Shown here piece by piece: positions 72-953 of a stretch of 64,000 nt of DNA. Positions within the stretch are counted from its first letter, which is position 1. Each line of letters opens with the position of its first letter. A model generated the notes under the pieces. The model searched no databases and was not told where the DNA came from. It saw nothing but the letters and a program-made list of their open reading frames with translations. Where the stretch lies: the NCBI GenBank assembly GCA_002256245.1, contig NKIU01000001.1:734232-798231 (forward strand). Reading direction: 5' to 3'. Origin of the DNA: Pseudorhodobacter sp. PARRP1 (GTDB lineage: Bacteria > Pseudomonadota > Alphaproteobacteria > Rhodobacterales > Rhodobacteraceae). The translations under genes were made by a program, and so were the position numbers.

Positions 72-105
72 GGGAACCAAACGCAGACCCGTGCGTTTGG
101 TTCCC
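72..105. promoter_or_regulatory. symmetric bidirectional EcfG-type promoter
   Basis: A perfect inverted repeat has 14-bp arms (GGGAACCAAACGCA at 72-85 and its complement at 92-105) and a 6-bp centre. Read rightward it holds GGAAC at 73-77, then 16 nt, then CGTT at 94-97, which is the consensus of EcfG general-stress promoters. Because the block is palindromic, the same GGAAC-16-CGTT appears leftward. It lies about 35 bp before phyR and about 25 bp before the leftward ORF, so one block could drive both. Confidence 0.75.
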
Positions 106-131: not shown

Positions 132-953
132 ATGAGCAACGAAGCAAAGGCAAACCTTTCCGATCTGGTTGCCATGCATTTGCCCAGTCTGCGCCGCTAC
201 GCGCGCGCGTTGACGGGCAATCAGACCAGCGGCGACCAATATGCTGTCGCTGCCTTGGAAACCGTGTTGGCCGAACCTGCGCTTGTTGGGGAAGCAGATG
301 ATGCAAAAGTTGCGCTTTTCAATGTCTTCCATATGGTGTGGGCAAGTTCTGGCGCACCGTTGGGCCAAGCGGACAACCGTCTTTCCGCAGCCGCCCAAGC
401 CCATATGGCCGATCTGACGCCCAACAGCCGCGAAGCGTTGCTTTTGCACTTCATCGAAGGCTTCACGCTTGAACAGATCGCGGCGATCATGCAGATCGAC
501 ACTGAAGAATCCCAAGGCCTGATCACGCTCGCGCTGCGCGAGATGACAGACACCGTCAGTGGCCGCGTGATGATCATCGAGGATGAGGCGATCATCGCCA
601 TGGACATCATCGGCATCGTCGAAGGCATGGGCCACCAGATCACCGGCGTTGCGCGCACCCGCAAAGAAGCCGTGGCGTTGGCCAAGGCGGAAATGCCCGA
701 TCTGATTCTTGCCGACATCCACCTTGCGGACAGCTCGTCAGGCATTGATGCGGTGAACGATATTCTGGGTGGCTTCGATCAGATCCCGGTGATTTTCATC
801 ACCGCCTTCCCCGAACGTCTGTTGACCGGCAAACGCCCTGAACCGGCCTTCCTGATCAACAAACCCTACACCGAAGAACAAGTCCGCTCTGCGGTCAGTC
901 AGGCGATGTTCTTCGCCTCGACCGAGACGCTGATGGCGCAGGAAAACGCCTGA
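132..953 (+). CDS. phyR: PhyR general stress response regulator
   Basis: This 273-residue protein has the reversed architecture of PhyR: a sigma-factor-like N-terminal half (about residues 10-140) followed by a receiver domain (about 145-265). In the receiver I see the acidic pair E150-D151, the phosphoacceptor D195 in LILADIH, T224 and K244. When phosphorylated, PhyR binds NepR through its sigma-like part and so frees EcfG, which switches on stress genes. The ATG at 132 follows GGAG at 121-124. An EcfG-type promoter lies directly upstream, which predicts positive autoregulation. A strong hairpin follows the stop codon. The partner histidine kinase is not in the window. Confidence 0.92.
   Translation: MSNEAKANLSDLVAMHLPSLRRYARALTGNQTSGDQYAVAALETVLAEPALVGEADDAKVALFNVFHMVWASSGAPLGQADNRLSAAAQAHMADLTPNSREALLLHFIEGFTLEQIAAIMQIDTEESQGLITLALREMTDTVSGRVMIIEDEAIIAMDIIGIVEGMGHQITGVARTRKEAVALAKAEMPDLILADIHLADSSSGIDAVNDILGGFDQIPVIFITAFPERLLTGKRPEPAFLINKPYTEEQVRSAVSQAMFFASTETLMAQENA

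Follow-up and report, generated by a model that had tools for sequence, protein, structure and literature searches.

Two interdigitated EcfG promoters between phyR and nepR-ecfG probably form a bidirectional promoter in Rhodobacteraceae

The window analysed here, a 64,000-nucleotide stretch of Pseudorhodobacter sp. PARRP1 DNA, opens within nepR, beside the divergently oriented phyR gene. The product of phyR (132-953, plus strand; Pfam PhyR_sigma2, 80.7 bits; NCBIfam NF006623, 339 bits) is a response regulator and anti-sigma antagonist possessing a sigma-like domain (PhyR_sigma2) and a receiver domain. Only the 5' part of nepR lies in the window, on the minus strand (1-48, start codon at 48-46), and the left flank, designated L004, was taken from the same contig. 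In this flank the whole of nepR occupies 5048-4866 (NepR, PF18557, 51.6 bits), and is followed on the same strand by ecfG (4869-4294), which overlaps nepR and encodes ECF sigma domains, and then by a gene encoding a HisKA_2/HWE kinase (4297-2552; HisKA_2, 54.3 bits). An earlier note on this DNA, lacking the flank, had guessed that the left neighbour was nepR/ecfG and had held that an unrelated neighbour would speak against its reading; the minus-strand NepR, ECF sigma factor and HisKA_2/HWE kinase genes bear out that guess. General-stress genes therefore lie downstream of the intergenic region and EcfG is encoded in the genome, as expected of a σEcfG promoter, with phyR, nepR, ecfG and the kinase gene all present at the locus. 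In alphaproteobacteria ecfG-nepR is usually divergent from phyR, with σEcfG promoters on both units (PMC4814048). Two further EcfG-like sites were observed approximately 4.6 kb leftward, upstream of small genes, one at L004 472-497 (GGAACCAATCC...CGTT) and the other on the minus strand at L004 335-311 (GGAACCAACAA...TGTT); an extended box, GGGAACCAA or GGGGAACCAA, recurs.

Between the divergent genes, positions 72-105 of the window read GGGAACCAAACGCA-GACCCG-TGCGTTTGGTTCCC, an unstranded element comprising two perfect 14-bp inverted arms (72-85 and 92-105) around a 6-bp centre (86-91) that is not self-complementary, giving 28 symmetric positions in 34. The earlier description of this element as a perfectly symmetric 34-bp palindrome holds for the arms and is overstated for the whole, both because the centre is asymmetric and because relatives show no more than chance symmetry outside the promoter boxes, as described below. 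The accompanying report of GGAAC-N16-CGTT on both strands was accurate. The phyR-directed copy spans 73-97 on the plus strand (-35 GGAAC at 73-77, -10 CGTT at 94-97, spacer 16), and the nepR-ecfG-directed copy spans 104-80 on the minus strand (-35 GGAAC at 104-100, -10 CGTT at 83-80, spacer 16). Both strands thus carry the boxes of a σEcfG (ECF15) promoter, namely a -35 GGAAC, a spacer of 16-17 and a -10 C/GGTT, and in this genome both directions are perfect matches to the consensus, which PMC12148442 gives as GGAAC-N16-17-C/GGTT. The genes, the divergent layout, the boxes and the spacing are likewise those of the alphaproteobacterial phyR and nepR-ecfG promoters of PMC4814048.

The two promoters are interdigitated within the same 32 bp, such that each -10 box is set inward of the opposing -35 box by 2 bp and the two -10 boxes remain separate (80-83 and 94-97). 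Transcription toward phyR would be expected to start at about 104-106 and transcription toward nepR-ecfG at about 71-73, which places the predicted starts approximately 32 bp apart, at the two ends of the palindrome. These predicted starts bear on a possible role of the repeat as an RNA hairpin, terminator or cruciform acting on transcripts. The 14-bp arms and 6-base loop could pair, but transcripts initiated at the outer edge would not contain both arms, and the loop is not conserved among relatives. The palindrome has no Rfam match and no T tract follows its arms, and we regard a function of this kind as exceedingly improbable.

The occurrence of these motifs was assessed in this and in related genomes. 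The single pattern GGAAC-N16/17-CGTT is not over-represented genome-wide (70 matches, against 210 for the reversed control), and thus single matches by themselves prove nothing. The strict two-way pattern, GGAACNNAACGN(9-11)CGTTNNGTTCC, has one match in the 4.35-Mb genome. Among 296 family genomes it occurs once each in 50, nearly all of different genera, and its reversed control has no match; all 30 of the copies that were fetched adjoin phyR. The looser arrangement GGAAC-N16..24-GTTCC occurs 23 times in this genome, and the other copies listed, judged by eye, contain no AACG/CGTT pair in the same register.

Conservation of the palindrome was examined in 148 Rhodobacteraceae phyR loci that were selected by PhyR protein similarity alone, without use of the motif. 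Upstream of phyR, 137 of the 148 carry GGAAC...GTTCC spanning 31-34 bp in total, which is well in excess of chance, and 2 carry a control motif of the same composition, CAAGG/CCTTG. When the distance was allowed to vary from 10 to 120 bp in a set of 157 loci, which included a few identified through the motif, lengths of 31, 32 and 33 bp stood out with 8, 85 and 53 cases, and no other distance had more than 3. The pair is also present in 64 of a second set of 79 named loci, some of them shared with the first set; nepR and ecfG lie leftward in minus orientation in 63 of these, and at the remaining locus nepR is present and no ecfG match was found. Comparison of the phyR-nepR spacer in relatives, which the earlier note had proposed as a check, thus recovers the same overlapping palindrome at more than 90% of the family's phyR loci, and at 64 of the 79 named ones. 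Cultured bacteria that carry it include Thioclava pacifica (L183) and Celeribacter halophilus (L231). Five congeners were also compared; they differ in the centre and flanks but not in the outer arms, and the palindrome is kept by all four other congeners that have phyR. At the threshold applied, PhyR was matched in 188 of 395 family genomes, some of them incomplete, and in 4 of 14 congeners besides this genome; on these counts the whole stress switch seems to have been lost often in the family.

The promoter boxes themselves are conserved to the same extent on both sides. Among the 137 loci with the palindrome, NGTT at a spacing of 16/17 is found in the phyR direction in 129, in the nepR direction in 129 and in both directions in 123; CGTT is found in both directions in 75. 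Of the commonest classes, the spacer pair is 16/16 in 48 loci, 17/17 in 34 and mixed in 33, as expected for two promoters that each maintain their own spacing. In these relatives each -10 box likewise stays inward of the opposing -35 box by a few base pairs.

These counts also weigh on the idea that one direction alone is a real promoter and that the other is a by-product of the symmetry or a decayed relic. In its favour, NGTT is absent from one or both directions in 14 of the 137 loci, and some of these copies may be one-way; 62 of the 137 lack CGTT in one or both directions; Paracoccus uses one side only; and the portion of the Rhodobacter sphaeroides dRNA-seq study that deals with start sites describes the nepR-directed promoter alone (PMC5830050). 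The equal conservation of the two sides, each with its -35 box and 16/17 spacing, and the perfect consensus of both directions in this genome argue against it, and a single functional direction is therefore unlikely.

A long inverted repeat between divergent genes is also the usual form of an operator, and the palindrome might accordingly bind a dimeric transcription factor acting on both genes, the promoter match being incidental. This interpretation was addressed with a mirror covariation test, in which the right halves were shuffled among loci to obtain the expectation. Loci of the 32-bp class, the larger one, exhibit no mirror covariation outside the boxes (z 0.5 overall, 0.2 in the inner spacer). 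The 33-bp class gives z 1.3 overall, with a small mirror excess (z about 3) in the boxes and next to them, which would agree with an operator and which could be explained by the relatedness of the loci. Among relatives, inner positions 84-85 mirror 92-93 no more often than chance predicts, and an arm reaching 13 bp inward from GGAAC was found in 1 of 84 loci, where 3% is expected; the long 14-bp arms of this genome are the tail of a chance distribution. Repair of a quasi-palindrome by mirror-correcting mutation was also considered as a source of the symmetry; it predicts covariation in the inner spacer, which was not seen. With mirroring outside the boxes no greater than expected, the palindrome is best described as two near-identical promoters combined in a single register, with no separate symmetric signal. 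A dimer operator was rejected on this test and is, in our judgement, very improbable: the conserved letters are those of the σEcfG boxes at sigma spacing, the other positions of the larger class are no more symmetric than chance would make them, the total length varies between 31 and 34 bp with the 16/17 spacer, and each half can be lost separately.

The exceptional loci illustrate such separate losses. All nine of the named Paracoccus loci lack the phyR-directed EcfG promoter and retain the nepR-directed one, whereas L084, L133 and L155 retain the phyR direction alone. In Rubellimicrobium (L199 and L203) the palindrome is degraded, with an altered left GGAAC box, and in second phyR copies (L087, L124, L177 and L178) it is lost or weakened. 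The separate loss of halves fits two promoters rather than one indivisible operator. At the Paracoccus loci (L214, L220, L225, L229, L238, L242, L244, L246 and L251) a conserved TTGTGY-N17-TA[CG]NNN was observed in the phyR direction, within about 130 bp upstream of phyR and overlapping the nepR-directed EcfG promoter. To judge from its sequence this element looks like a σ70 promoter, and TTGTGY-N17-TA[CG] is absent from the other 70 named loci.

Outside Rhodobacteraceae, 46 phyR loci from other alphaproteobacterial families were compared. The commonest pair layout, found in about 11 of the 46, is back to back, the two GGAAC boxes being separated by 6-9 bp. Four loci have back-to-back GGAAC boxes 22-41 bp apart, three loci from one family carry a 32-bp GGAAC..GTTCC whose -10 box is weaker on the phyR side, and two loci, also from a single family, have a tighter 27-bp face-to-face form in which GGTT lies within the opposite GGTTCC; the rest contain no clear promoter pair. 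Where pairs were found in the other families sampled, the -35 boxes are thus mostly back to back, whereas the promoters described here interpenetrate and share DNA, and this sampling indicates that the fixed 31-34 bp face-to-face register is characteristic of Rhodobacteraceae rather than of the class. The back-to-back gap is itself nearly fixed (L267, L268, L272, L274, L277, L282, L283, L285, L288 and L291), being 6-9 bp and most often 8 in several families. The 27-bp register, GGAAC...GGTTCC, was observed at L295, L296, L170 and L179, where the -10 GGTT belongs to the -35 box of the opposite strand. Such promoters are inherently near-symmetric, since the EcfG -35 box read backwards holds a -10-like GGTT.

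The site shares features with the bidirectional promoters of Escherichia coli described by Warman and Grainger, being one pseudo-symmetric site with promoter elements for both strands and divergent mRNAs, at which two polymerase orientations would be adopted one at a time. In E. coli the opposing polymerases cannot both occupy one such promoter (Warman et al., PMC12825309), with competition occurring only when activity is high, and noise is reported to be lower (PMC12825309). In the E. coli promoters the two directions use a common symmetric σ70 -10 element, and their starts are most often separated by 10, 18 or 23 bp (PMC12825309). No shared -10 element with starts at about these distances is present here; instead, full ECF -35 and -10 boxes are interdigitated, the predicted starts are approximately 32 bp apart, the arrangement is conserved family-wide, and the sigma factor itself is the product of one of the transcripts. 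The site therefore appears to work like a bidirectional promoter of this kind while falling outside the shared -10 sub-type. In open-access papers we found no account of phyR/nepR promoters that overlap or form a palindrome; EcfG promoters have been predicted at the loci of Rubellimicrobium thermophilum in a study whose available text makes no mention of overlap (PMC12148442). Divergently arranged EcfG promoters are known, as are bidirectional promoters, and what we did not find described in the open-access papers is an interdigitated ECF form fixed across a family. As a bidirectional promoter the form is unusual in being driven by an ECF sigma factor, in its interdigitated -35 and -10 boxes, in its fixation across the family and in its location within an autoregulatory switch.

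The presence of two overlapping EcfG promoters on the same DNA, as the earlier note proposed, is strongly supported by these comparisons, as both fit GGAAC-N16/17-NGTT and their register is family-wide. We consider it probable, with good confidence, that the palindrome is a bidirectional EcfG promoter, in which two face-to-face promoters would load polymerase one at a time and the shared site would cap a feedback loop; neither a dimer operator nor a hairpin is necessary to explain it. EcfG-RNA polymerase would load in either orientation, one at a time, as the geometry suggests, because an open complex in one direction would melt the DNA holding the -35 box of the other promoter and exclude simultaneous occupancy. 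One binding event would then yield either the phyR or the nepR-ecfG mRNA. In the general layout of this circuit, PhyR binds NepR and thereby frees EcfG, which drives both transcription units (PMC4814048). Under stress, EcfG would therefore feed back positively both on its own operon and on the activator gene phyR through a single initiation site that the two have in common. Such sharing would limit the loop, and the amount of PhyR relative to NepR/EcfG would depend on how strong each orientation is compared with the other.

More tentatively, we propose that in Rhodobacteraceae the sigma operon and its activator gene compete for a single polymerase site, that this competition acts as a brake on an autocatalytic switch, and that the register is under selection for it, other alphaproteobacteria having more often adopted the back-to-back arrangement. 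The fixed register could alternatively have been inherited and locked by the overlap, rather than selected for a regulatory effect. If the proposal is correct, the stress switch of these bacteria has a built-in brake. The family would appear to provide a naturally replicated bidirectional promoter that serves an alternative sigma factor, at a point in the circuit where competition would determine the proportions of sigma, anti-sigma and anti-anti-sigma factors, and the half-losses of Paracoccus and the back-to-back relatives offer ready-made comparisons for asking whether promoter overlap tunes the feedback loop and its noise.
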